Made by a program: the position numbers and the translations under genes. A stretch of DNA of 64,000 bases, from contig JAFRCN010000004.1 in assembly GCA_017404335.1 (NCBI GenBank), positions 62,001-126,000 on the forward strand, written 5' to 3'. Within the stretch, counting starts at the first letter, position 1. Every line of letters begins with the position of its first letter. This document shows, piece by piece, positions 36,359-59,701 of this stretch. The DNA comes from Candidatus Saccharimonadota bacterium. Its GTDB lineage: Bacteria; Patescibacteriota; Saccharimonadia; Saccharimonadales; Saccharimonadaceae. The notes under the pieces were generated by a model that saw only the letters and a list, made by a program, of their open reading frames with translations, did no database searches and was not told where the DNA came from.

Positions 36359-37386
36359 GTGATTTCGGAAGTCTTGTTTTTTACGTTTTCTCCTTCTTAA
36401 TCTCCGCCATCCTTTATAATTTTTATTGTAAGCACAACCGAAAAATTTTCCTGTTCGTCGCGGCCCTAATCCCAATTCTGATTGGCGGCTTAAGATTTAA
36501 TGTTGGGACTGATTATTCGAGCTATTATAACTACTATATGCATGGAAGTTTCGTTGATCCGGGTTTTTATTTGATTTCGTCTATCGCCAGGATGTTTGAT
36601 AATTGCCAAGTCATGTTCTTTATATATAATGCCCTAACTTTGCTATTTGTGTTTTTGGGTATTGGAAATATGAAGAAAGAATGTAGACCTATCGCTTATT
36701 TGTGTTTCCTATTCTTGTTTTTCACCACAAGTTTTAATGCGATGCGGCAGATGCTAGCGGTTAGCATTGTTTTCTTCTCATATAAATATGCTATGAATAA
36801 GAAAATACTATCTTTTGTCATCTTAACACTAATTGCATCACTTTTCCATATTACGGCAATTTTTGGTCTGATAATATACCCATTGCTACGCATAAAACGG
36901 AGAGCAATTAAGGTTGCTGCCTCAGTTGCTGTGTTGTGCGTAGCGATTGGGTGCCAGGGCGTCATTGGCGGCATTTCAGAATTAAGCGCTTTTGAGCATT
37001 TCTCTATGTATCAAAATTATAATGGGTCTGGCTTTTCCAACGCCTCTTTCTTTTTCGAGCTATTAGTATTAGCGTATTTGGCAAGTTTTTATAGGCAGAT
37101 AGCCAAGAAAGATGAATCATTCGCAGGGTATTTCTTTGTTTACTTTGTTGGTGTAATTCTTCTTTTGACTGGATTTTATAGCCCATTCGTGAAGCGTATT
37201 GCTTTATATTTTACCATATCCAGTATTACGCTATTGCCAGTTATTCCATTTTCGTGCAAAAACGGCAAGGATAAGATGCTCAATCAAGTGATTATAGTAG
37301 CTTTTATCATGAGTAGGTTCATTGTTCAGTCTTTTTTACTGGGCCAGGCAGACATAATACCTTATAACTGTGTGGGGTTGTGGTGA
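36355..37386 (+). CDS. EpsG-family polysaccharide polymerase-like membrane protein
   Basis: 343 aa with about ten hydrophobic segments. GGLRFNVGTDYSSYYNYY near 42-59 is the EpsG signature, and FFTTSFNAMRQMLAVSIVFFS near 121-141 the second conserved block. Such proteins polymerise repeat units on the outer face. ATGA overlap with the GT4 gene and TGATG overlap with the GT2 gene. Confidence 0.88.
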   Translation: MSDFGSLVFYVFSFLISAILYNFYCKHNRKIFLFVAALIPILIGGLRFNVGTDYSSYYNYYMHGSFVDPGFYLISSIARMFDNCQVMFFIYNALTLLFVFLGIGNMKKECRPIAYLCFLFLFFTTSFNAMRQMLAVSIVFFSYKYAMNKKILSFVILTLIASLFHITAIFGLIIYPLLRIKRRAIKVAASVAVLCVAIGCQGVIGGISELSAFEHFSMYQNYNGSGFSNASFFFELLVLAYLASFYRQIAKKDESFAGYFFVYFVGVILLLTGFYSPFVKRIALYFTISSITLLPVIPFSCKNGKDKMLNQVIIVAFIMSRFIVQSFLLGQADIIPYNCVGLW

Positions 37387-38189
37387 TGGCAAAAATAGAT
37401 ATAATTATGGGGATATATAATTGCGAGGACTATCTTGCGGATAGTATCAATTCAATTCTGGGTCAAACTTTTACTGATTGGCGGTTAATTATGTGCGACG
37501 ATGGCAGTACTGATTCGTCTTTAAAAATTGCACGAGAGTATGAAAAGAAGTACCCGACGAAAATAGTTGTTCTGAAAAACAAGCGGAATATGGGGCTAAA
37601 CTATACACTGAATAATTGTTTGAGGCTTGCCGATGCTGAATATGTTGCAAGGATGGATGGCGATGATTTATCAAACCCTTGCAGGCTAGAAAAAGAATTG
37701 GATTTCCTTGCCAAGAATAAAGAGTATGCTTTTGTCTCGACTGCCGTTGAGACTTACGATAAAAAAGGGGTCTGGGGAGAACTATATTACAAAGAAAATC
37801 CCGACCGATATGATTTTCTCAAGATAAATCCATTTGCTCATCCTGCCGTAATGATAAGACGTGAAGCGCTAAAAGATGTGGGTTATTATTCGGTAGATAA
37901 AAGATTGATTAGGGTAGAGGATTTTCATTTGTGGTTTAAGCTATATGCTAAAGGTTATAAGGGTCACAACCTTCAAGAAATCCTATATTCTTATCGAGAT
38001 GATCGCAACGCAACATTACGTAGGTCTTGGACGAATAGAAGAAATGAGTACTTTGTGCGGAAGATTGGATATAAAATGTTAAATATGCCAAGGCATCTAA
38101 GGTTCTATAAATACCGTCCGATAATATTAGCTCTATTACCAAAATCTGTATGTGAAAAATTACACAGAAATAGACTAAGGAGGAAATAG
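37386..38189 (+). CDS. Glycosyltransferase family 2
   Basis: 267 aa GT-A enzyme: IIMGIYNCEDYLADSINSILGQT, CDDGSTDSS (first Asp pair) and RMDGDDLSNP (metal-binding DxD). No transmembrane segment. Start at ATG 37386, overlapping the epsG-like stop; two in-frame GTG codons just before it are less likely. Confidence 0.93.
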   Translation: MAKIDIIMGIYNCEDYLADSINSILGQTFTDWRLIMCDDGSTDSSLKIAREYEKKYPTKIVVLKNKRNMGLNYTLNNCLRLADAEYVARMDGDDLSNPCRLEKELDFLAKNKEYAFVSTAVETYDKKGVWGELYYKENPDRYDFLKINPFAHPAVMIRREALKDVGYYSVDKRLIRVEDFHLWFKLYAKGYKGHNLQEILYSYRDDRNATLRRSWTNRRNEYFVRKIGYKMLNMPRHLRFYKYRPIILALLPKSVCEKLHRNRLRRK

Positions 38190-38191
38190 TC

Positions 38192-38986
38192 ATGAAGAAA
38201 ATCAGCATGCAAGAAAGACGAAAGATTTTACTAAACATGTTAGCGTATATCGATAATTTATGCAGATCTAACGGTATTAAGTATTCATTGATTGGTGGAT
38301 CATTGATTGGCGCTGTTCGTCATAATGGGTTTATTCCGTGGGACGATGATATAGATATCATTCTAATGCCAAAAGATTATGAAAGATTACTAAAAATAAT
38401 TGATAAGGGCGGGAAATATAGCCTATTGAAACCAAACCAGAAGGGTTATAATTATCCTTTTAAAAAACTCGTGGATAAAAAAACTGTTATTCTTGGAGAC
38501 AGAAGCGGTGGAGATGGTTATGGTGTATTTATAGATATTCTCTCGTATCATTATGTTTCAAATAATGCACTAGCTCGGCGATGGGAGTTCTTCAGGCAAA
38601 TGACATACAAGAAGCTCCTAGGCTTTTGCACCACAGACACTGGAAAGATTGCCGGTATGAGCTCTTTTCGCAAAGCCATAATATATGTTTGCAAGAAGGT
38701 TTTTTCTGTAAAATGGGTTTTGAGGAGATACATAAGGTGCTGTCAAAAGAACAAGGCAACTAATTATATCGTAAGTAACTGGCCTATATATGGTTTTAAG
38801 AAAGAAACTCAGAACGCTAAGTCCCTTAATCATTATATGGATGGTAATTTTGAAGGTCAAAAAGTCATGATATGTAGTGATTATGACGATGTGCTGCGTA
38901 CTTCTTTCGGTGATTATATGGAGCTGCCACCAGTTGAAAAGCGCAAAAGCACACACATAGGAGTGGCATATTGGAGGAGTAAATAA
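38192..38986 (+). CDS. LicD-family phosphotransferase
   Basis: 264 aa. The LicD signature GGSLIGAVRHNGFIPWDDDIDI (two parts: GGSLIGAVRHNG and IPWDDDID) gives a nucleotidyltransferase-like active site. LicD proteins move phosphocholine or other phospho-substituents from a CDP donor onto surface glycans. A CDP-alcohol-type cytidylyltransferase lies downstream in the same operon. Phosphocholine itself is not shown: no choline kinase or transporter is in the window. Confidence 0.92.
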   Translation: MKKISMQERRKILLNMLAYIDNLCRSNGIKYSLIGGSLIGAVRHNGFIPWDDDIDIILMPKDYERLLKIIDKGGKYSLLKPNQKGYNYPFKKLVDKKTVILGDRSGGDGYGVFIDILSYHYVSNNALARRWEFFRQMTYKKLLGFCTTDTGKIAGMSSFRKAIIYVCKKVFSVKWVLRRYIRCCQKNKATNYIVSNWPIYGFKKETQNAKSLNHYMDGNFEGQKVMICSDYDDVLRTSFGDYMELPPVEKRKSTHIGVAYWRSK

Positions 38987-39918
38987 TGCAGTCCAAGATA
39001 AAGATTGCCTTTCTTGTCATTGCTCATAGCAACGAGGGACAGCTCAATCTATTCATCAATCAACTTTTAGAATATGACAATAGTTATGTATTCGTGCATT
39101 TAGATAAAAAGAGCACTTTAGAAAAAGACCAAATTTTGAGCCACGAACGAGTAATCATACTTGAGGAAAGAGTCAATGTTTCTTGGGGGGACTATTCTTA
39201 TATAAAAGTTGTAAAAATGCTACTAAACTATGCGAGTGAATATGCCGATTTTGATTACTACTCGCTGCATTCAGGGGTCGACCTAATGATAAAACCAGTA
39301 CAAGCGTTGGTCGATTTTCTAAAAAAGGACGGAAGGGATGCCTACTTAGAGGTTGAAAAGATGCCGATTAGTGGCACTAAGCGATGTGGTCATATGGAAA
39401 GAATAGGCTTGTATTATCCGAGGTTTATGCGAAAGAAATATCGTTATAAAAGCTTTATGCGGTATCTGCGCTCGGCATATATGTCAACATATAAATACCT
39501 AGTATTCCCTAAACTCGATGATAGTATATATTGGTTTGGCTCGAGTTTTTTCACGATAAGTAAGAAAATGCTAGGTGATTATTATGCTTTTCTCTCGAGT
39601 AATGCAGATTACGATAAACACTTTTACAATTCATTGTGCGGGGATGAGATATACTTTAATACAATTTTCATGAATTCTAGAAATTGCGATATTGCCAGAG
39701 ATAATAATCTGTTCTTCATAAAATGGAGCACCGTAGAAGTATATGCCGGCTCACCTCACACTCTTACAATGGCGGACAAAAAATCCCTATTGTATTGCAA
39801 TGCATTCTTTGCTAGAAAATTCAATGAAGACGTAGACAATCGCATCATACAGTTTTTTGCAAAAAAATCAAAATGTTCGGAAATGGCAGAAGGGAGGACT
39901 AGGCGTGCTGAAGCGTAA
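38986..39918 (+). CDS. GT14-like (core-2/I-branching) glycosyltransferase
   Basis: 310 aa. AFLVIAHSNEGQLNLFINQLL, VFVHLDKKS, VSWGDYSYIKVVKMLL, YYSLHSGVDLMIKP and the KWST stretch are typical of the Branch family of N-acetylglucosaminyl- or xylosyltransferases. It begins one base before the end of licD. Confidence 0.88.
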   Translation: MQSKIKIAFLVIAHSNEGQLNLFINQLLEYDNSYVFVHLDKKSTLEKDQILSHERVIILEERVNVSWGDYSYIKVVKMLLNYASEYADFDYYSLHSGVDLMIKPVQALVDFLKKDGRDAYLEVEKMPISGTKRCGHMERIGLYYPRFMRKKYRYKSFMRYLRSAYMSTYKYLVFPKLDDSIYWFGSSFFTISKKMLGDYYAFLSSNADYDKHFYNSLCGDEIYFNTIFMNSRNCDIARDNNLFFIKWSTVEVYAGSPHTLTMADKKSLLYCNAFFARKFNEDVDNRIIQFFAKKSKCSEMAEGRTRRAEA

Positions 39919-41398
39919 AACTACGTTGTTAAACATGATATCAGCCCTCTTTCTACAAGTGGCCTTGATGTTGAATGGATTTATCATACCAAAATTGATC
40001 CTGGATGCGTTTGGGTCTGACGTGAATGGGTTGGTGGCATCTATAACCCAGTTCTTGCAGTATATTGCCTTGATTGAAGGAGGTATTACTGGCGTAATTA
40101 CGGCGAAGCTTTATAGACCACTAACCGAAAACGATAGTGCAAAAATCAGTGCCATATTGAACTCGGCCCAAAGATTTTACAGAAGAATAGGCTACATCTT
40201 CATAATCTATGCTGTGGCTTTAGCTATTATTTATCCGTTAGCATTCAATACGGGGTTTAGTTTTATCTATGTGGCGTCGTTGGTTTTGATACTGTCGATT
40301 TATCTGATTATTCAATATATGCTATCACTGACATACAAAACTCTATTAACTGCCGATAAGAAAATATACGTCGTGTCCTTTACGCAAGCATTAATCAGAA
40401 TTGCGGAAATCGTGTTGGCCGTTTTGGCAATTAAAATTTACCCTGAAATTCATTTCTTGAAGATACTGACTGGCGCGATTTTTATTGTTCAGCCCATCGT
40501 GTATACGCGCTACGTAAACAAGCATTATAATATCGATAAAAAAGTGGTTGCGGACAATGCTTTGATAAAAGGGCGTTGGAATGGATTTGCGATCAATACG
40601 GCGGCATTTATCCATAATAGCACCGATATCGCGGTGCTAACAATCTTTACTAATTTAGCTACAGTATCGATTTATAGCGTTTACGCATTGGTAACTAGCG
40701 GTATCAAAAATATCATTAACTCGTTGGTTTCTAGCTTGAATCCGACGCTTGGACATGCTTACGCGCGGAAGGATTTTGTTGATCTAAAACAGAAGATTGA
40801 CCTATACGAGTATATCGTGTTTGCGCTAGTGTTCTTTGTATTCGGAGTGGCTGGGCTGCTAATTACGCCCTTTGTGATGATTTACACTGCGGGGCTGACT
40901 GATGCAGATTATTTTCAACCACTATTTGGCGTACTGCTAGTGATTGCCGAAGCGCTTTATCTACTAAAGTTCCCTCATCTTAATCTAGCTTATTCGGCGG
41001 ATAAATTTAAGGAAATTTCAAAACCGGCTTTTATCGAAGCGGGGCTAAACATTATTATCTCTGTGGCGTTAGTGCCGTTTTTGGGAATTATTGGTGTGGC
41101 CATCGGCACGATTGCGGCAATGGCCTATCGGCTGATATTCCATGTGTATTATACTTCAAAAATTGTACCAAGATGGCGGCAGTGGTTTTTCTACCGAAAA
41201 CTAATTATTTTTGTAATAGCAACCGAAATTGGGATTATGGTTTCTCTAACACTACCACTGCCGGAAAACACGATTTTTAGCTGGCTTTGGCATGCAGCAG
41301 CGTATTCCATAATTATCGGCATTCCGTTAGTGGTGGTTAGTTTGGTATTTTTCCGACCAGAGCTTAAATATTTTAAACATTATCTAAAAAGGAGATAA
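39905..41398 (+). CDS. Polysaccharide flippase (Wzx-like, MATE/MVF clan)
   Basis: 497 aa with about 12-14 membrane helices. The N-terminal LLNMISALFLQVALMLNGFIIPKLIL and GSDVNGLVASITQFLQYIALIEGGI are typical of oligosaccharide flippases. The GTG start at 39905 is chosen for GGGAGGA at 39892-39898; longer versions begin deep in the previous gene. Overlap of 14 nt with the GT14 gene. Confidence 0.9.
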   Translation: MLKRKTTLLNMISALFLQVALMLNGFIIPKLILDAFGSDVNGLVASITQFLQYIALIEGGITGVITAKLYRPLTENDSAKISAILNSAQRFYRRIGYIFIIYAVALAIIYPLAFNTGFSFIYVASLVLILSIYLIIQYMLSLTYKTLLTADKKIYVVSFTQALIRIAEIVLAVLAIKIYPEIHFLKILTGAIFIVQPIVYTRYVNKHYNIDKKVVADNALIKGRWNGFAINTAAFIHNSTDIAVLTIFTNLATVSIYSVYALVTSGIKNIINSLVSSLNPTLGHAYARKDFVDLKQKIDLYEYIVFALVFFVFGVAGLLITPFVMIYTAGLTDADYFQPLFGVLLVIAEALYLLKFPHLNLAYSADKFKEISKPAFIEAGLNIIISVALVPFLGIIGVAIGTIAAMAYRLIFHVYYTSKIVPRWRQWFFYRKLIIFVIATEIGIMVSLTLPLPENTIFSWLWHAAAYSIIIGIPLVVVSLVFFRPELKYFKHYLKRR

Positions 41399-41400
41399 GC

Positions 41401-42129
41401 ATGAAAAAAATAGCAATCATATTAGCGGGTGGTGTAGGAAATCGGACTGGGCAGGATATTCCAAAACAATTTTTAAATGTAGATGATAAGCCGATTATTA
41501 TTTACACTCTAGAAGCATTTCAGAAAAACCCAGCGATTGATGAAATTGAAGTAGTATGTAGGGAGGGGTGGCATGATATTTTGTGGGCGTATGCGAAGCA
41601 ATTTAATATCGACAAGCTAAAATATGTGATTACTGGAGGTGAAAGTTCGCAGGAATCAATCAAGCTGGGAGTATTTAATCTGGAGGGGGTACTAGAGAAA
41701 GACGATATTGTAATTATTCATGACGGAGTGAGGCCATTGGTAGATGAAGAGGTACTGCTAGATGTGGTGGCGGTATGCGAAAAATATGGTAATGCGGTGA
41801 CTTCGCTGCCTTATAATGAGCAGATTTTTGTGGTGAATGAAAGTGATTCTGCGACAACGAATGAATATGTGCCGCGAGATACCTTGCGCAGAGTATCGAC
41901 ACCGCAAGCATATAAATTCGGCGAAATTGACGAAGCCTATCATTATGCTTTTGATAATAATTTCGGGATTGGTAATTCGACCTACGCTAACACTTTAATG
42001 GTGGATCTTGGCAAAACTTTACACTTTGCAGCGGGGTCAGATAAGAATATTAAAATTACCACTCGTGATGATATTGAGATATTTAAGGCTTATATTAAGG
42101 CCGATAAAGACAATGATTGGTTAAAATAA
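41401..42129 (+). CDS. IspD/TarI-family cytidylyltransferase
   Basis: 242 aa. The CTP-binding signature ILAGGVGNRTGQDIPKQFL opens the protein; IIHDGVRPLVDEE and DTLRRVSTPQAY follow. In an isoprenoid pathway it would be IspD, but its place between a flippase, LicD and an epimerase/dehydratase argues for a TarI-like enzyme making a CDP-activated alcohol for surface decoration. AAGGAGATAAGC precedes the ATG. Confidence 0.88.
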   Translation: MKKIAIILAGGVGNRTGQDIPKQFLNVDDKPIIIYTLEAFQKNPAIDEIEVVCREGWHDILWAYAKQFNIDKLKYVITGGESSQESIKLGVFNLEGVLEKDDIVIIHDGVRPLVDEEVLLDVVAVCEKYGNAVTSLPYNEQIFVVNESDSATTNEYVPRDTLRRVSTPQAYKFGEIDEAYHYAFDNNFGIGNSTYANTLMVDLGKTLHFAAGSDKNIKITTRDDIEIFKAYIKADKDNDWLK

Positions 42130-42130
42130 G

Positions 42131-43186
42131 ATGCAAGACATGAAACAGTTGTATTTGGAAGATATTAAAAAGACAATCGAATCGTTCGTTACTATTGAAT
42201 CGATAAAGAACTGGACTTTTTTCATAACTGGTGCGAATGGATTAATCGGAAGTTTTCTGATTGATATATTGATGTACTTGAACGCGAATAATGATTCAAA
42301 TATCACGATAATCGCTAACTCACGTAGTAAAGAAAAACTAGAAAAGCGGTTTCCTGATTATGTATCAGATAAACATTTCAAGTATTACATCGGCGATATT
42401 AATAAACCTATTAATTGTGACGAAAAGGTCGATTTTATCGTAAACTGTGCAAGCAATACTCATCCCGTAGGATATGCGACTGACCCAATTGGGACTATCA
42501 TGACAAATATCCAAGGGACGGCGAATGTACTGGATTTTGCGACGAAATGCAAAACCGCTAAAACTATATTTTTATCGAGCGTAGAGATCTATGGTGAGAA
42601 TATTTATAATATAGAACGGTTTAAAGAAGATGAGATGGGGTATATTAATTGCAATTCTTTGCGAGCTGGATATAATGAAGCAAAAAGATGCGGAGAGACG
42701 CTGTGCCAAGCATATATCGAAAAAAATGGGATTGATGTTTCGATTCTGAGGTTACCGAGGACTTATGGACCGACGATGAAAATGGATGATTCAAAGGCTT
42801 TGTCGCAGTTTATTTTGAAGGCGGCGGCTGGCGAGGATATTGTTTTGAAGAGCCGAGGCGAACAGTATTTTTCGTATTTATATGTGGCGGATGTGGTAGG
42901 TGGGATATTGAAATGTCTAGTGGCGGGGAAGTGTGGCGAGGCGTATAACCTTGGAAATATCGAGTCTGATATTAGGTTGAAGGATTTAGCTGAGATGGTG
43001 GCGGAGATTGCAGGAGTGAAGGTGGTATATGATTTACCTGACGAAAAAGAAGCAAAGGGGTTCTCAAAAGCAACAGTCGCAAGATTGGATTATTCGAAGG
43101 CAGAGCATGAACTTGAGTTTCATCCTCGAGTCGACATTGAAAACGGTGTACGAAGAACGATTGCGGTTTTACGTGAAAAACGATAG
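42131..43186 (+). CDS. NAD-dependent epimerase/dehydratase (extended SDR)
   Basis: 351 aa. Rossmann GxxGxxG as TGANGLIGS (33-41) and the catalytic YNEAK (YxxxK) with the upstream LSSVEIYG. Likely acts on a nucleotide-activated sugar or alcohol together with the preceding cytidylyltransferase; the pairing recurs in teichoic-acid-type loci. It is the last gene of the polysaccharide operon before the accessory island. Confidence 0.9.
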   Translation: MQDMKQLYLEDIKKTIESFVTIESIKNWTFFITGANGLIGSFLIDILMYLNANNDSNITIIANSRSKEKLEKRFPDYVSDKHFKYYIGDINKPINCDEKVDFIVNCASNTHPVGYATDPIGTIMTNIQGTANVLDFATKCKTAKTIFLSSVEIYGENIYNIERFKEDEMGYINCNSLRAGYNEAKRCGETLCQAYIEKNGIDVSILRLPRTYGPTMKMDDSKALSQFILKAAAGEDIVLKSRGEQYFSYLYVADVVGGILKCLVAGKCGEAYNLGNIESDIRLKDLAEMVAEIAGVKVVYDLPDEKEAKGFSKATVARLDYSKAEHELEFHPRVDIENGVRRTIAVLREKR

Positions 43187-43200
43187 CGTTTTTAGGGCTA

Positions 43201-43256
43201 GCATAAGCGAGGGGTAGGGGGTTGTAATATCTGGGATGGTGTGGTAAGTTTGGCGT
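43201..43256 (+). promoter_or_regulatory. Conserved 56-bp promoter repeat, copy 1
   Basis: Begins GCATAAGCG, then GGGGTAGGGGGTTG. -35 TTGTAA (43222-43227), 17-nt spacer, -10 TAAGTT (43245-43250), 6 nt to the ATG. It shares 44 of 56 positions with copy 2 (44407-44462), with identical spacing. Confidence 0.75.
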
Positions 43257-43649
43257 ATGAAAAAGAATGGAAGAAATGGGAGGATTATTATCCCTGCCAA
43301 CAGGAAGCCTTGGCCTCACGAGCTGAGGACTGCAAGGATGCTTGCCGTTGCTGGATACTGTGTTGAGTTTTTGTCTGAAAAAAATTTGCACGCTCCAGAT
43401 ATCCTTTTGAATGGTGTAGAATATGAGATCAAATCTCCAGAAACTGGAAAAACGTCTTCATTGGAGCAATCAATCAGAACAGGACTTAAGCAATGCCCGA
43501 ATGTGATTATCGACTCTTCACGCATGAAAATGCATGATGACCGAGTATGTAGGTTTCTTATAAAAAAATGCCGTGAGCAGAAACAGATTAAGAAAATGAT
43601 TCTCGTGACGAAAACTGGCAACATAATTGACATTTTTGAGCTATTCTGA
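43257..43649 (+). CDS. PD-(D/E)XK nuclease-like protein (CdiA-CT tRNase type), copy 1
   Basis: 130 aa. PHE (20-22), D48 in APDILLNG and E57-I-K59 form the PD-(D/E)XK pattern found in contact-dependent-inhibition tRNase toxins. It has no delivery domain, no signal peptide and no recognisable immunity gene next to it. It has the same motif order as the second copy at 44463, though the sequences have diverged. Leaderless by promoter spacing. A toxin role is inferred from family; a free-standing housekeeping nuclease is possible. Confidence 0.72.
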   Translation: MKKNGRNGRIIIPANRKPWPHELRTARMLAVAGYCVEFLSEKNLHAPDILLNGVEYEIKSPETGKTSSLEQSIRTGLKQCPNVIIDSSRMKMHDDRVCRFLIKKCREQKQIKKMILVTKTGNIIDIFELF

Positions 43650-43714
43650 TAGTATTATAAGTAACGAAGTCCTTGCAGGGCGCAGTATGCACTTAGCGCG
43701 AGGACTTCTTTTTT
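43627..43714 (+). ncRNA. Promoter-driven short hairpin RNA after nuclease copy 1
   Basis: TTGACA (43627-43632), 17 nt and TAGTAT (43650-43655) lie in the 3' end of the nuclease gene. From about 43662 a compact hairpin follows: GAAGTCCT (43666-43673) with AGGACTTC (43701-43708), enclosing GCGC/GCGC, then a T run. It could be simply the gene terminator; the good promoter just before it suggests a separate RNA of about 50 nt. Confidence 0.5.
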
Positions 43715-43739
43715 GTTATTTATGATAAGATGGAATAGT

Positions 43740-44267
43740 ATGTCACATGTTTCGAAAAATAATCGTAAAAATGTTTGGAAGATTATTTCCGTATTGTTAG
43801 TGATTGTTTGGATGGTGATGATTTTTGTGATGTCGAATTTTCCGGCGGAGGTGTCGGATAGGCAAAGTGGCGTAGTAGTGGAGCTGACGAAAAAGATTTT
43901 TAATATCTCGACTGAGCAATCGGAGTTATTAGACAATTTGACGACTATTGTGCGGAAGTGTGGGCACGCTTTTGAGTATTTTGTGTTGGGCGTATTGCTG
44001 CTGAATATGCTTCGGCAGTTTTGGTCCGCGAAGCGTAAGGGCGGGTGGGCGAGGTATTGGTATTTGGCGGTGGTTGGTGCATCCATCTATGCAGTGACGG
44101 ATGAGGTGCACCAGGCTTTTGTGCCGGGGCGTTCGTGCGAGCTGCGTGATGTCATAATTGACACCGTGGCTGCTGGTGTGGGGGTGGGAGTGGTGATGCT
44201 AATTAGGCGATGGCGGAAGGCCTTCAGCAATCGGGAAGATAAACAATTAATTGATGGTGTAGCATGA
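43740..44267 (+). CDS. VanZ-like membrane protein
   Basis: 175 aa with four membrane segments (about 12-34, 68-88, 101-121, 135-153). The VanZ-family residues appear in KCGHAFEYFVLG and DEVHQAFVPGRSCELRDVIIDTVAAGVG. The family gives low teicoplanin resistance in enterococci, but its members are widespread and of unclear function. Start at 43740 is set by TAAGAT (43726-43731), 8 nt upstream; an earlier ATG precedes the promoter. Confidence 0.85.
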   Translation: MSHVSKNNRKNVWKIISVLLVIVWMVMIFVMSNFPAEVSDRQSGVVVELTKKIFNISTEQSELLDNLTTIVRKCGHAFEYFVLGVLLLNMLRQFWSAKRKGGWARYWYLAVVGASIYAVTDEVHQAFVPGRSCELRDVIIDTVAAGVGVGVVMLIRRWRKAFSNREDKQLIDGVA

Positions 44268-44270
44268 TTT

Positions 44271-44377
44271 CGGTTGGGCGTGTTTTTGGGGAAATACGTC
44301 TAACCGTAAAAACAAGAAAAGTTCGCCCCTGTCGAATTACGGTTAAGCGTATATTGACAAAAATACGTCTAACCGTA
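44271..44377. repeat. Four alternating copies of an ACGTCTAACCGTA motif
   Basis: Copies at 44292-44308 and 44361-44377 are identical over 17 bp (AAATACGTCTAACCGTA). Inverted copies lie at 44337-44352 (TTACGGTTAAGCGTAT) and, more weakly, 44271-44283 (CGGTTGGGCGTGT). Neighbours can pair as two hairpins. Nothing codes here. They may be operator sites of the island or remnants of a mobile element. Confidence 0.7.
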
Positions 44378-44406
44378 GGATTTGATTACTTTGCTAATGA
44401 TTTTTT

Positions 44407-44462
44407 GCATAAGCGTGGGGTAGGGGGTTGAAGATTTTGGGGTGATGTGGTAGGTTCGTTGT
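44407..44462 (+). promoter_or_regulatory. Conserved 56-bp promoter repeat, copy 2
   Basis: -35 TTGAAG (44428-44433), 17-nt spacer, -10 TAGGTT (44451-44456), 6 nt to the ATG. A third partial copy of the G-rich block (GCGTAAGCG, GGGGTGGGGGTTGAAG) lies at 44966-44991 ahead of the ORF6N gene. Confidence 0.75.
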
Positions 44463-44876
44463 ATGAAAACAATAGAGTTGAAACAGGTGCCGAAGAATCG
44501 GCAAGGGGGTTTTCATAAAAACGGCATCCGTTTAGAGCCACATGAGGAACGGACTGCGGAGTTTCTTACATTGTATGGTTTTAATATTGAAGTAATACGA
44601 CCGATGAATACGCCGGAGGTACATAATCCTGATATTCTGATGAGCGGTACGATTTGGGAAATGAAGGCGCCAGAGTCTTCAAATCTTAAGACAATTAAGA
44701 AAAGAATACATGAGACATCAGAGCAGCCTAATCATCTCGTGCTTGATTTACGGAAGACTAGAAAGGATTATGAAAAAGTTGAGAGAGATGCGATTCGGCG
44801 TTTTCAAACAAACGCAGACTTAAGAAGAATGATCCTAATTACAAATGAGAAGAAAATACTAGATTTTAAAAAGTAA
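44463..44876 (+). CDS. PD-(D/E)XK nuclease-like protein (CdiA-CT tRNase type), copy 2
   Basis: 137 aa. PHE (26-28), D57 in NPDILMSG, E66-M-K68, then a basic helical segment with RKTRKDYEK and a final hydrophobic strand RRMILITNEKKIL. Same motif order as copy 1. No immunity gene, no secretion signal. Its promoter repeat implies co-regulation with copy 1. Confidence 0.75.
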   Translation: MKTIELKQVPKNRQGGFHKNGIRLEPHEERTAEFLTLYGFNIEVIRPMNTPEVHNPDILMSGTIWEMKAPESSNLKTIKKRIHETSEQPNHLVLDLRKTRKDYEKVERDAIRRFQTNADLRRMILITNEKKILDFKK

Positions 44877-44882
44877 CTGTGG

Positions 44883-44945
44883 TATAATGATGAGTATTGA
44901 GGGCGACCCCGTGGTTAAGTCCGCGAGGCCAAGCCCTCTTTTTTG
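44883..44945 (+). ncRNA. Promoter-driven short hairpin RNA after nuclease copy 2
   Basis: TGG-TATAAT (44883-44888) directly follows the nuclease stop. Transcription from about 44895 would give a RNA of about 50 nt folding as GAGGGC (44899-44904) with GCCCTC (44933-44938), an inner CGTGG/CCGCG stem, and a TTTTTT tail. It mirrors the arrangement after copy 1. A plain terminator is the alternative reading. Confidence 0.5.
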
Positions 44946-44965
44946 TGTTTTTATTTTTGTTTTTA

Positions 44966-44991
44966 GCGTAAGCGTGGGGTGGGGGTTGAAG
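44966..44991 (+). promoter_or_regulatory. G-rich promoter repeat, partial copy 3
   Basis: GCGTAAGCG, then GGGGTGGGGGTTGAAG, as in copies 1 and 2, but the downstream half is not conserved and no clear -10 follows. About 50 nt before the ORF6N start. Confidence 0.55.
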
Positions 44992-45040
44992 TATTTTTTA
45001 AACTATGATAGAAGTCTCTACAAGATAAATGGGAGATTTT

Positions 45041-46126
45041 ATGGTTAAAAAAGATAAGGAGAGTGATAAAAGCGAATCATCTGCAATTATTAGTGAGTCG
45101 ATGATCCGGGATAAGATATATACAATTCGTGGACAGCGGGTAATGTTGGATGCGGATTTGGCAGTAATATATGGGTACGAGACTAAGGCATTTAATTGAC
45201 AGGTAAAGAACAACATCGAAAAATTCGAAGGGGAGGATTTTATGTTTCAATTGACACGTAATGAAGTGCGAAGCCTTTTGAGGTGCAAAAATTGCACCTC
45301 ACGAAATGTCGCACTGTTTAGCGGCAATGAAGGTGGTACTCGATATTTACCATACGCTTTTACCGAACAAGGAATCTACATGCTAATGACGGTACTACGA
45401 GGAGAGCTTGCAACAAAGCAAAGTAGAGCGTTAATCAGAATGTTTAAGCAAATGAAGGATTATGTTTTAGATAATCAGGAAAAATTGGACTATCGGAGCA
45501 ATCTTCAACTTGCATTAAAAGAGATTGGCGATTTACAAAGTATAAAAAAGTTAAATAATGATATCATCCGAATAGACAATCAGATTTCTGATGTTAATGA
45601 GAGACTTAATAATACCGTTACTAAATCTGAGATTTCACCGATTTTGCTAGATTTTAAGAATGGTGTAATACAAAAGGAATTTGTGATTATGGGTGGTGAA
45701 CTATTAAAAGCAACAGATGTGTATACTGATTTGTATGCTAGTGCGAAGAAAAGCATTTATCTAATCGATAATTACATTAGCATCAAGACGCTCCGACATT
45801 TTTGTAAAGTAAAAGATGGCGTTGAAATAACGGTGTTTAGTGACAATTTAGGGAACTATCTACACTCTAGCGATTTAGAAGATTTTAAGAAAGAATTTCC
45901 ACGAATTAACTTGAATTTTATCAGGTCAGAAAATGCAATACACGACAGGTTTATTATATTAGACTACAAAGAAAAAGACGAGAAAATTTATGTGTGTGGC
46001 GCTTCAGAAAAGGACGCTGGGAAAAAACTGACGACGATAAAACTTTTTGACGATCCTGGGTTGGCAAGCATAGTACATGATGTGGTGAAAAGACTTAAGA
46101 TTAATCCGAGTTTACAGTTGGAGTAG
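45041..46126 (+). pseudogene. ORF6N-domain protein with PLD-like C-terminus, broken by an in-frame TGA
   Basis: The frame opens at ATG 45041 (GGGAG upstream) and encodes a typical ORF6N start (IYTIRGQRVMLDADLAVIYGYETKAFN), hits TGA at 45197-45199, and continues in the same frame with QVKNNIEKFEGEDFMFQLTRNE. A restart is possible at ATG 45242 behind GGGGAGG, giving 294 aa. The C-terminal half has a PLD/TIR-neighbour-like domain with IHDRFIILDY (H-D-R variant of HxK). ORF6N proteins are phage- or mobile-element-linked DNA-binding proteins. A single base change explains the stop. Confidence 0.78.
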
Positions 46127-46225
46127 ATTATGTTTAAGCTTGAATTTTTGGGGAAAATGGGGTATAATTTGTCAGCATTTGAGCGATTTTATTCGTTCGA
46201 CGGATTGTGATATTATATATAATAT

Positions 46226-47431
46226 ATGAAGACCCTGTTTAGAGTTTTGAGAGTTCTGTTATTGGTCGCGCAGGCGGTCGTGGCGGGGATTTTGGTGTTT
46301 TCGCTTGTACGGATGAATATTTTGGGGTCAAGATGGATTGTACTAATCATCGCGGGGCTAGTCGGGGTGTTTATGCTCTGTGCGCTGGGGCTAATGCTAG
46401 CCTATCGGGCGGAGAAAAAGAAGGCAAGAATCGACGGAGAAAATGGGGTGCCGAAGATAAAAACCGGGATAATAATTACTAGAGTTGCTTGCGGAGTTTT
46501 GTCTATTGCGTCGATTGTTGAGTGCGTGTTTCTATATCAATATACTGAGTCGATTAACCATCTTTTTGACAAGATTTCGGTAGCCGCGCCGGAAGGTGAG
46601 GAAAAGGAGGAAGCTGGCGAGTTCGAAAAGCCGTTTATTGTTTATATTTCGGGGAGCGATTCGCGCGAGAATGTTGAAGACCCGACAGCGCGCTCGGATG
46701 TCAATATCGTAGCCGTAGTTAATCCAAAGAAGGGGAAAATTCTACTCGCGTCGGTACCGCGCGATACTTATGTGCAACTACATGGTACGGAAGGACTAAA
46801 GGACAAGTTGACGCACGCGGGGCTTAGGATGTATTATGACGCCGATATGAGTAAACTGACAATGGAAGATTATTTGGGGATTAAGATTGATTATACGGTA
46901 AAGGTGAGTTTTGATACGGTGGTGAGTGTGGTTGATGAACTTGGTGGGGTGGAGATATTTTCAGATACAGCGTTAAATCTTAAAGTGGAGAAAAAGAATA
47001 AAACGTGCCATATAATATATGGTTTACAAACGGTGGATGGGGATTGCGCGCTGAGGTTTTCGCGTGAACGGAAGTCATATTATCGAGGCGATAAGCATCG
47101 AGGCGAAAACCAGCAGGAAGTTTTGACCGGTATTATCAACAAGCTGTCGAGCTCGCGAGATTATGTTTTAAAACTCCCGACGATTTTGGAAATTGCGGCG
47201 GATTCGTTTGAAACTTCGTTTAGTCGAGACGAGATTACGACGCTGATTCGGAAGCAACTTGAGGAATCGATTGCTTGGCAAGTCGAGTCGGTTTCGGTAG
47301 ATGGAGAAGGACAACTATTGCCAACCTATACCTATCCGGAGATGGAGCTTTATGTGATGATTGCGGACGAGGAATCACTTGCGGGAGTGAAGAGCAGAAT
47401 AAACGAATACTTAGAGACTGACAAAAAATAA
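46226..47431 (+). CDS. LytR-CpsA-Psr (LCP) family phosphotransferase
   Basis: 401 aa. Two or three N-terminal membrane helices (about 5-28, 36-58, 80-100) precede an LCP domain: IVYISGSDSRENVEDPTARSDVN, LLASVPRDTYVQL and a late RFSRERKSYYRGDKHRGENQQ with catalytic Arg residues. LCP enzymes attach lipid-linked glycopolymers to peptidoglycan, which fits the surface polysaccharide locus upstream and the kinase downstream. AT-rich promoter with TATAAT immediately before the ATG. Confidence 0.94.
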   Translation: MKTLFRVLRVLLLVAQAVVAGILVFSLVRMNILGSRWIVLIIAGLVGVFMLCALGLMLAYRAEKKKARIDGENGVPKIKTGIIITRVACGVLSIASIVECVFLYQYTESINHLFDKISVAAPEGEEKEEAGEFEKPFIVYISGSDSRENVEDPTARSDVNIVAVVNPKKGKILLASVPRDTYVQLHGTEGLKDKLTHAGLRMYYDADMSKLTMEDYLGIKIDYTVKVSFDTVVSVVDELGGVEIFSDTALNLKVEKKNKTCHIIYGLQTVDGDCALRFSRERKSYYRGDKHRGENQQEVLTGIINKLSSSRDYVLKLPTILEIAADSFETSFSRDEITTLIRKQLEESIAWQVESVSVDGEGQLLPTYTYPEMELYVMIADEESLAGVKSRINEYLETDKK

Positions 47432-47491
47432 GCATAAAAAATACCATTTTTTGAATTTTGTGCTATAATAGGGAAAAAGAAAAGCATATCT

Positions 47492-48859
47492 ATGGAAGAA
47501 ATAAATATTAAAGATTTTGTGGTTTATTTAAAGCGCTATATTTTGGCGTTCATTATTACGATTGCGGTTGCGGTGGCTGGGGCGGCGGTTTACGACACCA
47601 CGTTTAAAAAACCGATTTACCAAGCGCAGACGACGATTGTTGTAGCAAAGTCTGGCGACGCTGAGGCGAGTGTGGCGACGACTTTAAACGATATTAATGC
47701 GAGTCAGAAGTTAGTGGCAACTTATAGTGAGATTGCAAAAAGTGAGTTAGTCTTAAATAAAGTAATTGATAATTTGAGTTTACGAATTCATACGAAAGAT
47801 TTAAGTAAAAGAATTACGATTAAACCGGTTGACGATACCTCGATTATTAGTATTACGGTTAAGGATTTAGAGGCTAATTCTTCGGCGACGATTGCGAATG
47901 AGATTGCAAAAGTTTTTTCGGAAGAAATTGGAAACATTTACAAGGATAGAACTTATAATGTAAGTCAGCTTAGCGTTGCAGTAGCGCCAAGCGCGCCTTC
48001 GAATAATACTTTGACGCGTGATTTAATTTTGGCGGTAGCGGTGGCGATTCTAGCGGTCGGTGGGTTTGCTTTTCTTAGATTTTATCTTGACGATACGGTT
48101 AAACATCGTGACGATGTGGAGAAAATATTTAAATTACCGGTTGCGGGTAGCATCTCGAAGAGTGATATGAAGATGAAAACTAGTGAGCTGATGGTCGCTA
48201 AATACCCGAAATCGATTGTTTCGGAAAACATTAAGAGTTTAAGAACGAATCTTCAATTTACGGCGGTGGATAAGAATTTAAAAACTATTTTAGTGACTAG
48301 TACGAACGCAGAAGAAGGGAAAAGCTTTGTAGCATCGAATCTTGCGATTTCGTTCGCGCAGGCAGATAAAAGAGTGCTTCTAGTGGATTGTGATTTAAGA
48401 AAAGGCCGCGTGCATCGACTGTTCAAGCTATTCAATAATGGTGGGTTGTCTAACCTTTTGACTGATAATCTGAAAAATTTTGCTAGTTATATTCGTCCGA
48501 CCAATATTAATAATTTAGACGTTATTACTTGCGGGACTTACCCACCGAACCCGAGTGAGCTTTTGGCTTCGCAAAAAAATCGAAGGTTGATTTCGGCGCT
48601 CAGGAAGTATTACGATATTATTATATTTGATGGCGCTCCGGTTGGAGGATTGGCGGACTCGGTAATTCTTTCGAGCTTTGTGGACGAGACTTTGATCGTG
48701 GTAAAAGATGGTAATACTTCGCGGAACGACTTAATGGCGGTGCGGGATTCGCTCGAGAAAGTTGGAGCGAAGATTGCCGGTGTGGTGTTTAATATAGTAA
48801 GTCATAAATCATCGAAATATTATTATTACGCTAGCGATTCCGAGCAAGATATTAAATGA
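47492..48859 (+). CDS. Wzz-type chain-length regulator fused to a BY-kinase (CpsC-CpsD)
   Basis: 455 aa. Wzz domain with two membrane helices (about 17-35 and 172-192) and the periplasmic part between, then a tyrosine kinase of BY type: Walker A-like STNAEEGKS, LLVDCDLRKGRVH (Walker A') and IIIFDGAPVGG (Walker B). The C-terminus has a Tyr cluster (KYYYYAS), the usual autophosphorylation site. In Firmicutes these are two proteins; here they are joined. -10 TATAAT at 47464-47469 with a 22-nt leader. Confidence 0.93.
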   Translation: MEEINIKDFVVYLKRYILAFIITIAVAVAGAAVYDTTFKKPIYQAQTTIVVAKSGDAEASVATTLNDINASQKLVATYSEIAKSELVLNKVIDNLSLRIHTKDLSKRITIKPVDDTSIISITVKDLEANSSATIANEIAKVFSEEIGNIYKDRTYNVSQLSVAVAPSAPSNNTLTRDLILAVAVAILAVGGFAFLRFYLDDTVKHRDDVEKIFKLPVAGSISKSDMKMKTSELMVAKYPKSIVSENIKSLRTNLQFTAVDKNLKTILVTSTNAEEGKSFVASNLAISFAQADKRVLLVDCDLRKGRVHRLFKLFNNGGLSNLLTDNLKNFASYIRPTNINNLDVITCGTYPPNPSELLASQKNRRLISALRKYYDIIIFDGAPVGGLADSVILSSFVDETLIVVKDGNTSRNDLMAVRDSLEKVGAKIAGVVFNIVSHKSSKYYYYASDSEQDIK

Positions 48860-49566
48860 TAGATATACACTCGCATATTATTCCGGGAGTCGACGATGGG
48901 GCGGAGACTTTGGTTGATAGTGTGGAAATTATAAGGGAGTTAGCATCTCAAGGGGTGACGGATATTATTGCGACGCCACACTTCGTCGAGGGGTCGGTTT
49001 ATGAATCGCCGAGGGAGAAGAATAAAGAACTTTTTAGGGAACTTCTTCAGCTACTTAAGGAGCGTGAAGTCGACGTAAACCTTTATCTAGGAAATGAAAT
49101 TTATATTACGGAGCGAATTGATCAACTAATCAAGGACGGGATGGTTTCGACCTTAGCGGATAGCAAGTATATTTTAGTTGAACTTCCGTTAAATGGCGAG
49201 TATTCGAATTATGAAGATATTTTAGAAAGTTTAGGGTATTTCGGGTATCAAGTGATTCTGGCACATCCAGAGAGGTATGGGATTTTTCAGGAAGATTATT
49301 CCAGGCTAATGAATCTATGCGAGATGGGGATTTTACTACAATGTAATATCGGAAGCGTGATAGGAAAATATGGAAAAGACGTCAAAAAACAAGTCAAAAG
49401 ATTGATGAAGGAAAAGAGAGTGTTTTGTTTTGGGAGCGACATGCACCATGCGCGGGGTAAGAACGAGATTGTTCGGGCGATGAAAAAAATGCGAAAGTAT
49501 TATAACGATAGTGAACTAGAGCGGGTTTTGGTAAAAAATCCGCGAAGCATCTTGAAAAATTCTTAA
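48856..49566 (+). CDS. PHP-type tyrosine phosphatase CpsB/CapC
   Basis: 236 aa. Metal-binding DIHSHIIPGVDDG at the N-terminus, TPHF, EIYI and AHPERY, and a late FGSDMHHARG. It removes phosphate from the BY-kinase encoded just upstream (ATGA overlap), setting capsule chain length or export. Confidence 0.94.
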   Translation: MIDIHSHIIPGVDDGAETLVDSVEIIRELASQGVTDIIATPHFVEGSVYESPREKNKELFRELLQLLKEREVDVNLYLGNEIYITERIDQLIKDGMVSTLADSKYILVELPLNGEYSNYEDILESLGYFGYQVILAHPERYGIFQEDYSRLMNLCEMGILLQCNIGSVIGKYGKDVKKQVKRLMKEKRVFCFGSDMHHARGKNEIVRAMKKMRKYYNDSELERVLVKNPRSILKNS

Positions 49567-55957: not shown

Positions 55958-56359
55958 ATGTCATTACAATCTACAGACCAAGTTGCTGACCTAATTACGC
56001 GAATTCGTAACGCGGTAATGGTAGGCAAGAACGAAATTCTCGTCCCGACTTCTAAATTGAAGGCTGGGGTGGTAGAGGTTTTAGCGAAAAATGGCTATGT
56101 GTCTAGCTTTGAGGTGGTCGACGGGGCGCCGAGGGGAACGTTAAAAGTCGTCATCAATGAGCCGGGAACTATCGCTAAGATTAACGATATTTCGAAGGTT
56201 TCTAAGCCGGGCCGAAGAGTTTATTCTTCCGCTGAGGATTTACCGACGATTAAGTCTGGGCGGGGGATGGTGATCGTTTCGACTTCGAAAGGTCTCATGA
56301 CTGGTCGTGAAGCGAAGAAAAATCGTCTTGGTGGCGAAATCTTAGTGAAAGTTTGGTAA
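55958..56359 (+). CDS. rpsH: 30S ribosomal protein S8
   Basis: 133 aa. DLITRIRNAVMVGKNEILVPTSKLK and STSKGLMTGREAKKNRLGGEILVKVW are canonical. The usual next gene rplF is displaced by 2.4 kb. The stop codon lies inside the left arm of palindrome F. Confidence 0.98.
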   Translation: MSLQSTDQVADLITRIRNAVMVGKNEILVPTSKLKAGVVEVLAKNGYVSSFEVVDGAPRGTLKVVINEPGTIAKINDISKVSKPGRRVYSSAEDLPTIKSGRGMVIVSTSKGLMTGREAKKNRLGGEILVKVW

Positions 56360-56529
56360 AAAATATCAGATTTTAAAGCTTGGACTTGTCCGCTTGTAAT
56401 TTTTACAACGTAAGTCAAGAAAAAATGTCCTTATATTTGGGACATTTTTTCATTGTTAAGTTGTAAAAATTACGCGGACAAATCTGGTCTAAATCTCATT
56501 CATGCTTTAAAATCTGATATTTTTTACCA
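56354..56529. repeat. Palindromic element F at the break in the ribosomal operon
   Basis: The left arm (56354-56409) contains the end of rpsH; the right arm (56460-56529) repeats it inverted, with the stretch TGGTAAAAAATATCAG and AATTTTTACAAC matching and a 14-nt length difference. The core AAAAAATGTCC/GGGACATTTTTT (about 56420-56451) is a strong hairpin with A and T runs, able to terminate both ways. Same arms-plus-hairpin design as inserts A-E, but the core sequence is different. Confidence 0.85.
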
Positions 56530-56555
56530 TGTTTTTATCCACAAAACGCTTATCG

Positions 56556-56584
56556 TTGCATTTTTGAAATTGATTTGTTAAGAT
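56556..56584 (+). promoter_or_regulatory. Promoter of the VWA adhesin gene
   Basis: TTGCAT (56556-56561), 17-nt spacer, TAAGAT (56579-56584). A leader of about 70 nt ends in AAAGGAG before the ATG at 56663. No other gene lies in 56530-56662. Confidence 0.6.
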
Positions 56585-56662
56585 GAGGGCATTAATAGCA
56601 GTTTAAAAATCGAGGGTGTGGTGAACTTATTGTTTATTCGATTGAGTAAAGGAGAATAAAGG

Positions 56663-58729
56663 ATGAGAAAATTGTTCGGTAAGACCAGCAAGGTCTTACA
56701 AATTTTCTTGGCCATAATATTAACTTTACCTATAACTGTTACTATCCCGGTAAGTGCAGTGGATGGCCCCACTGTACAAAACCCGGCGCTAAAGGTGTTA
56801 GATAACGGTGCGAGCCTGTCGAAGACGGTGGAGGCAGTCGAAGGCTACGCAAATAGGTGGAAAATAACGCTAAGGATAGAGTCCCCAGTTATAAAGACCA
56901 CATCCGATACGATTTTGGTGATTGACCGCTCGGGTAGTATGAGCGGCAATAAGCTAAGCTCGGCGAAGTCGGCGGCTGCTACTCTGGCTCAAGAATTATT
57001 GCCAGAGGGAAATGAGCTAAATAGGATTGCGGTTTTGTCGTTCGGAGAAGATGCTACGACGAATGTTGGTTTTTCTTATGATTATGGCGTTGTTCGAAAT
57101 GCCATAAATGGGATTACGGCGGGAGGCGGAACGCACACACAAGCCGGAATGTATAAGGCTGCGGAACTCATAAGCACTTCGACGGCAGACCACAAAAATA
57201 TAATTTTGCTATCTGACGGAGAGCCGACGTTTAGTTACGGGATAGATAGTCCGGAAGATTATTTGGTTAAATTTTCCGAAAACAGTTATGGGGTGGGTAT
57301 GTATGAAACGAGTTCTGATATTCCAGTGACGGCTTTTCGATATGGTAGTAGAGTTGGGAATGGTTCAAACATCCGTACGAGGTTTGAGACTGGGTGTCTT
57401 TGGACTCAATTATGTTATTATAACCACGGGAACTCAGCGATTTCTGAAGCAGGGTTTTATAAAGAGAGTGGGGCGGGCAGTTTATACACGATAGCGTTAA
57501 ACGTGAATGATGAAGGAAGAGAAGTTTTAAGGAAGATGGCTACACCTGGGAAGTATTATACTGCTAGCCCAAGTGAGCTAGAGGTGATTTTTAAGGAAAT
57601 TGCCGGCAGATTATCGTCGGTGATTTATTCGGCGAGCGTATATGATGAAATGGGAGATGGAGTGGAAGCTAAAGTCAACACGGGGCATGCTAGTAGCCTA
57701 GGCTGGTCGCCAAAATTGGAGTTTGATGAGAAGCTAGAGAAATACGTAGCAGAGTATAGCTACGAAATTACAGTGAATCAAGAAATATTGGAGGCTGAGA
57801 ATGAGAACGGATTTTACAAGGCAAACAAGCGGGCAGTTTTAACGTACAACGAAGGAGAAAGGGCGGAGTTTCCAGTACCAAGAATTAAACCATATGTAGT
57901 TAAGGTGAATAAGGAGTTGGTTGGACAGGAATGTGTGGAATGTGTCTTTGGTTTTGAGCTAATTCGTCCGAATGATAGTAGGCTGTACTTTGAAGCAAAG
58001 GCCGGCGAAATACATAATATAGTCGAAGAATTCCCATATGGTAAGTATTCGGTAGTCGAAACGGTGACAAAGAATAATCCGGTTAAATTAAATGAGTATC
58101 TTACAGAATATGTCGGAGGTGATTTTGTAATTGATGTAAACCGTCTAGAATTTCATGAGGTGAAAATAAAAAATGTTTATGAAACAGTCGATATCCTGGC
58201 GACGAAAAAGTGGAACGATGCGAAAGATAAAGACAATTTGAGGAAGGATTATGATTTATTTGTAGCGGTAAAAGAGGAGGAAAGATATGTTGATTTCGCG
58301 AAAATTGGGACTGAAACCGAGCAGATATTTAGATTCGAGTCTTTGCCGAAGAATCGCGATGGTCAAGAAATACAATATTCGATCGAGGAGGCGGAAAATT
58401 GTGATAGAACAGAGGATGAGTTAATCTGTGAGACTTTTGATGGGGACGAGAATTATAAGGTGAAAATAGACGGCATGACGATTACGAATATTCATATTCC
58501 AAAAACAATTGAAGTAAATGATGGAGGATTCGGCGGGGTGACGGTTCCGCTTCGTCCTGAAACGGGAGTAAGACCTAACACAAAAACCAGCCAAAAGATG
58601 GATGCGGATGTAAGTTCGGGAGAGAATAAAGGTGTGGCTAGACAAGAAAGCTTTGGGACTCTAGCTATTGTATCTGTTGGTGCGCTAGTTATGGTGATTA
58701 TGTGGGGAGTGAGCAGGCGAAGGGCGTAG
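56663..58729 (+). CDS. Secreted VWA / Cna-B-type surface adhesin
   Basis: 688 aa. Signal peptide (about 1-32, cleavage after VSA). VWA domain from about 80 with MIDAS D88-R-S90-G-S92, TAGGGTHTQAGM and ILLSDGEPTF. A Cys pair (TGCLWTQLCYY) lies within it. Two Cna-B/SpaA-like domains follow (about 410-510 and 510-620), with more paired Cys. The end has PLRPETG, a spacer, one membrane helix and RRRA: a loosely LPxTG-like anchor, though the spacing (about 60 residues) is atypical. It resembles pilus-tip adhesins of Gram-positives and may bind the host bacterium. Inserted between rpsH and rplF. Confidence 0.88.
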   Translation: MRKLFGKTSKVLQIFLAIILTLPITVTIPVSAVDGPTVQNPALKVLDNGASLSKTVEAVEGYANRWKITLRIESPVIKTTSDTILVIDRSGSMSGNKLSSAKSAAATLAQELLPEGNELNRIAVLSFGEDATTNVGFSYDYGVVRNAINGITAGGGTHTQAGMYKAAELISTSTADHKNIILLSDGEPTFSYGIDSPEDYLVKFSENSYGVGMYETSSDIPVTAFRYGSRVGNGSNIRTRFETGCLWTQLCYYNHGNSAISEAGFYKESGAGSLYTIALNVNDEGREVLRKMATPGKYYTASPSELEVIFKEIAGRLSSVIYSASVYDEMGDGVEAKVNTGHASSLGWSPKLEFDEKLEKYVAEYSYEITVNQEILEAENENGFYKANKRAVLTYNEGERAEFPVPRIKPYVVKVNKELVGQECVECVFGFELIRPNDSRLYFEAKAGEIHNIVEEFPYGKYSVVETVTKNNPVKLNEYLTEYVGGDFVIDVNRLEFHEVKIKNVYETVDILATKKWNDAKDKDNLRKDYDLFVAVKEEERYVDFAKIGTETEQIFRFESLPKNRDGQEIQYSIEEAENCDRTEDELICETFDGDENYKVKIDGMTITNIHIPKTIEVNDGGFGGVTVPLRPETGVRPNTKTSQKMDADVSSGENKGVARQESFGTLAIVSVGALVMVIMWGVSRRRA

Positions 58730-58743
58730 AAGTATCACTATGG

Positions 58744-58784
58744 ACCAAAAATCCCTCGGAAGCGGGGGATTTTTGGTTTACTTT
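58744..58784 (+). terminator. Terminator after the adhesin gene
   Basis: ACCAAAAATCCC and GGGATTTTTGGT form a 12-bp perfect stem around a short loop, followed by TTTACTTTTT. It isolates the adhesin from rplF. Confidence 0.85.
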
Positions 58785-58796
58785 TTAGGGAAAGTA

Positions 58797-58833
58797 TGGT
58801 ATAATGGTAAGGATATTAACATAAAGGAGACAA
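58797..58833 (+). promoter_or_regulatory. New promoter for the second half of the ribosomal operon
   Basis: TGG-TATAAT at about 58798-58803, then about 30 nt with AAAGGAG before the rplF ATG. Needed because the adhesin block, with terminators at both ends, separates rplF from the L3 promoter. Confidence 0.75.
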
Positions 58834-59370
58834 ATGAGTCGAATCGGAAAACAGCCCATCGAAATTCCGGCGGGAGTGACAATCACGGTCGGCGACAAAG
58901 AGATTACTGTCGCAGGCCCGAAGGGTCAGCTCATCGTCCCGGTACAACCGAAAACTAAGACTTCGGTTGAGGGCACTACGGTTACGGTCACCCGTGAGGA
59001 TGACGAACCAAAATCTCGTGCTTGGCACGGCTTACAACGCGCATTGCTTAATAATGCCGTAGTAGGCGTGACTAAAGGTTATGAGAAAAAACTAGAAATT
59101 AACGGCGTAGGTTTTCGTCTATCTGGTGGTGGACAGGAAATCGAAATGGCGCTTGGGTTTTCGCACCCGGTAAAATACAAAGCGCCGGAGGGTGTACAAC
59201 TTGCAACTAATAAGATGGAAATAACGGTTTCCGGGATTGACAAGCAAAAGGTTGGTCAAGTTGCAGCGGAAATTCGCGCCCTGAAGAAGCCTGAGCCTTA
59301 CAAAGGTAAAGGTATTAAATATGTCGACGAAGTAATAATTCGAAAGGCAGGAAAGGCGGGTAAGAAATAA
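58834..59370 (+). CDS. rplF: 50S ribosomal protein L6
   Basis: 178 aa. SRIGKQPIEIPAGV, HGLQRALLNNAVVGVTKGYEKKLEINGVGFR in parts, and EPYKGKGIKYVDEVI. First gene after the adhesin block. Confidence 0.98.
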   Translation: MSRIGKQPIEIPAGVTITVGDKEITVAGPKGQLIVPVQPKTKTSVEGTTVTVTREDDEPKSRAWHGLQRALLNNAVVGVTKGYEKKLEINGVGFRLSGGGQEIEMALGFSHPVKYKAPEGVQLATNKMEITVSGIDKQKVGQVAAEIRALKKPEPYKGKGIKYVDEVIIRKAGKAGKK

Positions 59371-59699: not shown

Positions 59700-59701
59700 T
59701 T

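Follow-up and report, generated by a model that had tools for sequence, protein, structure and literature searches.

The window analysed here is a stretch of 64,000 nucleotides corresponding to positions 62001-126000 of contig 2, from a source genome of 686 kb in six contigs. It carries the ribosomal genes from rplC to rplO (49765 to 60849), and this run of genes is interrupted only between rpsH and rplF, a pair that forms one of the most conserved gene neighbourhoods in bacteria. In the window, rpsH (uS8; 55958..56359, + strand) is the upstream edge of a variable locus whose downstream edge is rplF (uL6; 58834..59370, + strand). The two genes are separated by a spacer of 2474 bp with one open reading frame (ORF) inside (56663..58729, + strand), which encodes a sortase-type surface protein of 688 aa with VWA and Cna-B domains, hereafter termed the adhesin. 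Elsewhere in the ribosomal run, the space between rplP and rpsQ measures 2 bp (53970-53972) and leaves no room for rpmC, and rpsE and rplO have no rpmD between them. Beyond the genus, the rplP-rpsQ spacing at some loci is 200-320 bp.

The adhesin carries a hydrophobic signal at its N-terminus, a VWA domain (56909..57223, + strand; residues 83-187; Pfam PF13519, 1.5e-17), a GBS104-like tip-pilin Ig domain (57626..57889, + strand; residues 322-409; PF21426, 7e-8) and a Cna_B domain (58199..58489, + strand; residues 513-609; PF05738, 1.2e-6), and every one of these matches exceeds the curated cut-offs. The MIDAS of the VWA domain is intact, with its DxSxS motif (DRSGS, residues 88-92), T157 and D185 all kept in relatives. 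The protein ends in a sorting-signal-like tail (58553..58726, + strand; residues 631-688) composed of RPETG, a linker of approximately 25 residues, a transmembrane segment and RRRA. Among solved proteins, phmmer searches returned the minor fimbrial subunit Mfa5 (2e-20) and SpaC (1e-3), both across the VWA part, and the best solved relative of the Cna-B part is, by sequence, a collagen adhesin. A single-sequence AlphaFold prediction of the fold reached a pLDDT of only 31 and was set aside.

No pilus operon, consisting of a backbone pilin and a pilin-polymerising sortase, lies beside the adhesin, which is the sole gene between rpsH and rplF. Sortase genes are present in all 100 genomes of the genus that we considered, and in the source genome they reside outside the locus, at C6:174736 and C2:154002. 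In one part of the genus (G021, G022, G030, G067, G081, G091 and G098) a small sortase gene is found roughly 3-5 kb 3′ of rplF. The adhesin is probably exported, transcribed from its own promoter and attached by a sortase encoded elsewhere. Its MIDAS-bearing VWA domain probably binds another cell or surface, and the partner may plausibly be a host cell. Relatives of the adhesin occur in 19 of the 100 genus genomes, in eight of these through short, mostly Cna-B matches only. The ten strong relatives are 42-48% identical, and most are located between or adjoining rpsH and rplF. The exception is a relative in G021 (C8:7390-9354, 43% identical), which lies off the junction, and the junction of that genome is empty.

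Immediately 3′ of the rpsH stop codon is an imperfect palindrome of about 175-181 bp (56357..56533, + strand; -87.8 kcal/mol, z -15), a feature absent from the initial annotation. Its inner perfect stem, AAAAAATGTCC/GGACATTTTTT (56420-56450, + strand), together with a T-run, resembles the core of a bidirectional terminator. The promoter of the adhesin (56546..56584, + strand) comprises the box ACGCTTATCGTTG, a -35 element TTGCAT (56556-56561), a 17-nt spacer and an extended -10 element TGTTAAGAT. Its core, TTGCAT-17-TAAGAT (with TAAGAT at 56579-56584), falls below detection by the pattern scan, yet is found at the same position in other species. The pattern scan identified an intrinsic terminator 3′ of the adhesin (58741..58780, + strand) and the promoter and leader of rplF (58777..58833, + strand), with TTTACT-17-TATAAT (58777-58805), an extended -10 element TATGGTATAAT and the leader GATATTAACATAAAGGAG. 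The initial annotation had described a secreted, adhesin-like protein of 688 aa whose gene has a promoter and a terminator of its own. The signal, the VWA, Ig and Cna-B domains and the elements listed above agree with that description. It had also named base composition as a check; at a GC content of 0.43, compared with 0.437 for the window, the adhesin bears no foreign signature, and a distant donor is not indicated.

We located rpsH and rplF in 100 genomes of the window's genus, one genome per species, and treated a gap as assessable where the two genes are close together, in order and on one contig. The gap exceeds 500 bp in 55 of the 64 assessable species, with a median of 4.2 kb and a maximum of 54.8 kb, and the remaining nine gaps measure 21-171 bp. 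The block from rplC to rpsH, used as a control, is nearly constant (5237-5662 bp in 55 genus genomes), and the other ribosomal junctions in the genus loci reach at most 266 bp; the break is therefore confined to one junction. As the genomes are apparently mostly metagenome-assembled, an artefact of assembly or binning has to be considered. However, the break affects 55 separate species at only this junction and with ordered flanks, and family genomes in a single contig (G168, G172, G302 and G243) are open as well, so that an artefact is hardly credible.

In other genera of the same family, by counts that for all genomes outside the genus were tallied by eye from tables, gaps of more than 500 bp occur in 30 of the 68 assessable genomes with two matches, representing eight genera and ranging from 0.57 to 35 kb, and 22 more genomes are contiguous. 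Elsewhere in the order and class, all gaps in approximately 104 genomes from other families measure 273 bp or less, and for Patescibacteria outside the class no listed single-contig rpsH-rplF pair is separated by more than about 170 bp. The tight rpsH-rplF arrangement is thus ancestral, and its opening is a trait of the family that is strongest in the window's genus. The opposite polarity, in which the open arrangement is ancestral to Saccharibacteria and was lost elsewhere, would fit the open junctions in some other genera of the family. It is very improbable given that the cargo varies between genera and that all sampled relatives from the order, class and phylum with both genes on one contig are tight. 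The initial annotation had proposed an insertion of adhesin DNA between rpsH and rplF and had suggested examining synteny across the phylum, where the same arrangement in all Saccharibacteria would speak for an ancestral state. The arrangement is not shared by all, and with 2474 bp in the window against a maximum of 273 bp outside the family the restriction to a lineage holds. What had been taken for a single insertion of one adhesin is instead one state of a locus that is variable throughout the genus. Relatives identified through rplF are labelled Candidatus Saccharibacteria, and several come from goat gut.

The regulatory elements that frame the junction are widely retained. Of 52 filled loci, 34 have a terminator-like hairpin 3′ of rpsH, against a frequency of 2% in mononucleotide shuffles. 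An extended -10 element lies within 70 nt of rplF at 53 of 56 loci, filled and empty alike, against 6.5% in shuffles. At the empty site L110, for example, the rplF promoter reads TTGACA-17-TATAAT. The suggestion that rplF gained a new promoter does not survive this comparison, as nearly all congeners carry the same promoter and leader whether or not the site is filled. Since a terminator-like hairpin follows rpsH and rplF has a promoter of its own, the spc operon contains a transcription-unit boundary at rpsH-rplF. The hairpin also makes ribosomal read-through into the adhesin unlikely, as far as can be predicted. The box ACGCTTATCGTTG precedes other surface genes at rpsH-rplF loci, a variant of it is located upstream of an unrelated surface ORF in L100, and in G000, G003 and G010 the copy at the locus is the sole exact one. 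Very large palindromes also occur in L100 and L155, within the first 220 bases past rpsH (z about -10 to -14), and are unrelated in sequence to that of the window.

We examined the cargo of 61 loci, namely 60 fetched gaps and the window, with five gaps covered in part where they exceed the 20-kb stretch. Sortase-type surface genes alone are carried by 21 loci, exopolysaccharide (EPS)- or capsule-type genes alone by nine, and both by six, giving totals of 27 loci with sortase-type surface proteins and 15 with EPS-type genes. Three loci encode arginine deiminase, ornithine carbamoyltransferase and an antiporter, 13 contain other genes, and nine are empty (L108, L110, L140, L143-L147 and L154). 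The surface label denotes a sequence pattern, specifically P-x-T-G followed by a hydrophobic stretch and then a basic tail. This sorting-signal pattern is present in 36 of 253 gap ORFs and in none of 184 ORFs from flanking DNA (p 1e-9, an optimistic value because near-related loci are treated as independent). Of the coding DNA in the cargo, 91% runs in the same direction as the ribosomal genes, and in surface-only loci this share is 100%.

An EPS/capsule-type cluster (32268..49566, + strand) is also present in the window, directly upstream of rplC, and its last genes encode LCP, Wzz/CpsD-like and CpsB proteins. Many congeners instead carry a cluster that closes with these genes inside the rpsH-rplF gap, with CpsB adjoining rplF; among 75 genomes searched, only that of the window has CpsB adjoining rplC. 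Within this EPS region we noted by eye an AAA-type ATPase and a RloB-like ORF (33093-35031) that resemble a defence-type pair, and two similar small ORFs (43257-43649 and 44463-44876) that resemble nuclease domains of the contact-dependent-inhibition type.

Some cargo genes have no relation to the surface or to a host, including rpoB/rpoC/leuS in L124 and L126 and a queuine transferase in L155, and for this reason some insertions may be neutral rearrangements. In the L124 gap, rpoB and leuS are identified by Pfam, and L124 and L126 probably contain rpoC too, an apparent rearrangement of core genes into the junction. The cargo of other genera of the family differs as well: one has metabolic-looking genes in the same junction, and another has, in L247 (599-8817), WXG100-like small ORFs, a 1525-aa FtsK/SpoIIIE-type ATPase and an 84-aa ubiquitin-like ORF, a composition that suggests a type VII secretion locus. 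A general account in terms of neutral decay can be built on such cases. According to this account, the internal promoter made linkage of the operon halves dispensable, the junction gathers any rearranged gene, and surface genes are merely common in variable DNA. The core genes in two loci, the differing cargo of other genera and the congeners in which the operon halves are far apart or on separate contigs are all compatible with it. The enrichment of sorting-signal proteins in the gaps relative to flanking DNA, the co-direction of the cargo and the common promoter box ahead of different surface ORFs count against it, however, and we consider neutral decay a somewhat unlikely explanation for the locus as a whole.

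Cargo turnover is seen among relatives. On a tree of rpsH and rplF from 54 loci, cargo class changes at least 25 times, compared with an average of 30 for shuffled labels, and a count as low was reached in three of 200 shuffles. Cargo class is slightly clustered and is therefore partly inherited, yet labile. Of the sisters L145 and L148, the former is empty and the latter has 1.1 kb ahead of the same leader. L129 and L130 have ends that are 88-92% identical, whereas identity falls to 67% in their shared EPS tail genes and their middle parts differ. Apart from promoter motifs, we saw no direct repeats, target duplications or att repeats at the loci, and no integrase, transposase or recombinase among the part of the cargo proteins that was scanned. 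A site-specific mobile element or phage that targets the 3′ end of rpsH and delivers cargo there would account for the single fixed site, and the large palindromes at the end of rpsH in G000, G085 and G027 might be seen as its trace. That reading is quite improbable in view of the missing recombination genes and repeats, which also led us to reject an integrative element as the source. The window palindrome is present in a single copy in its genome and has no homologue in the gaps of other species, and it was rejected as a MITE or other mobile element; a phage origin of the adhesin was rejected because viral contigs (IMG/VR) and phage records contain no relatives. Partly from the absence of repeats and recombinases, we infer that exchange probably takes place by homologous recombination through the ribosomal flanks.

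Constant flanks with differing cargo in relatives, and empty sites in close relatives, are the marks of an insertion hot spot, and both are found here. We therefore consider it likely that rpsH-rplF is a fixed hypervariable locus at which surface genes are exchanged throughout the genus. The position of the locus, its variability, its restriction to the family, the conserved rplF promoter, the enrichment of surface genes and the turnover of cargo support this reading directly. The terminator of rpsH and the conserved promoter of rplF would permit foreign genes to be tolerated without cutting the expression of ribosomal proteins. Different species would have filled the junction with outward-facing genes (sortase-type adhesins, capsule/EPS genes and arginine-deiminase genes), mostly in the ribosomal orientation, the resident of the window's genome being the VWA-CnaB protein. 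The conserved ribosomal genes on either side might serve as the sites of exchange, for instance after natural transformation, and selection for interaction with a host or environment could maintain the variability. Saccharibacteria are naturally transformable with homologous flanks of approximately 1 kb (PMC10633639).

Members of the genus are tiny Saccharibacteria and probably epibionts on other bacteria. Among the genes that are essential or important to epibiotic growth in a cultured Saccharibacterium are EPS, glycan-binding surface and arginine-deiminase genes, and the cargo classes of the junction match these gene types (PMC10633639). A stronger proposal, which we hold only tentatively, is that the junction is a dedicated expression site for surface genes, a terminator-promoter frame into which cassettes for adhesins, capsule or arginine catabolism are swapped by transformation with the ribosomal genes as homology arms. 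If so, it would provide a simple means of switching host or surface specificity. As the junction is enriched for gene kinds reported to matter in epibiotic growth, it yields a small number of candidate determinants of host range, which for uncultured Saccharibacteria could be read at one place per genome. Intact ribosomal operons are also not a safe assumption for binning or for marker sets. We found no description of a ribosomal-operon hot spot or of Saccharibacteria sortase adhesins among the open-licence PMC papers that we searched.

The adhesin resembles the sortase-pilus tip adhesins GBS104 and SpaC, as well as Mfa5, in its VWA domain with MIDAS, GBS104-like Ig domain, Cna-B domain and C-terminal sorting-type tail. 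Unlike GBS104 and SpaC, it has no adjoining pilin and sortase genes, and its PETG is located about 25 residues from the membrane segment. The locus is similar to published ribosomal-cluster insertions in that non-ribosomal genes reside within the same conserved cluster. Those described are, however, mostly single events between operons that involve small or metabolic gene sets, whereas rpsH-rplF is a junction within the spc operon that has been reused genus-wide. The pneumococcal cps locus, located between dexB and aliA, is a hypervariable surface locus flanked by conserved genes. The two loci share fixed core-gene edges and interchangeable polysaccharide or surface gene sets, and flank recombination would be common to both if it operates at rpsH-rplF as proposed. 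In contrast to cps, the rpsH-rplF locus is bounded on both sides by genes of the spc ribosomal-protein operon, and a single slot takes adhesins made of protein, clusters of the capsule type and genes for arginine deiminase.
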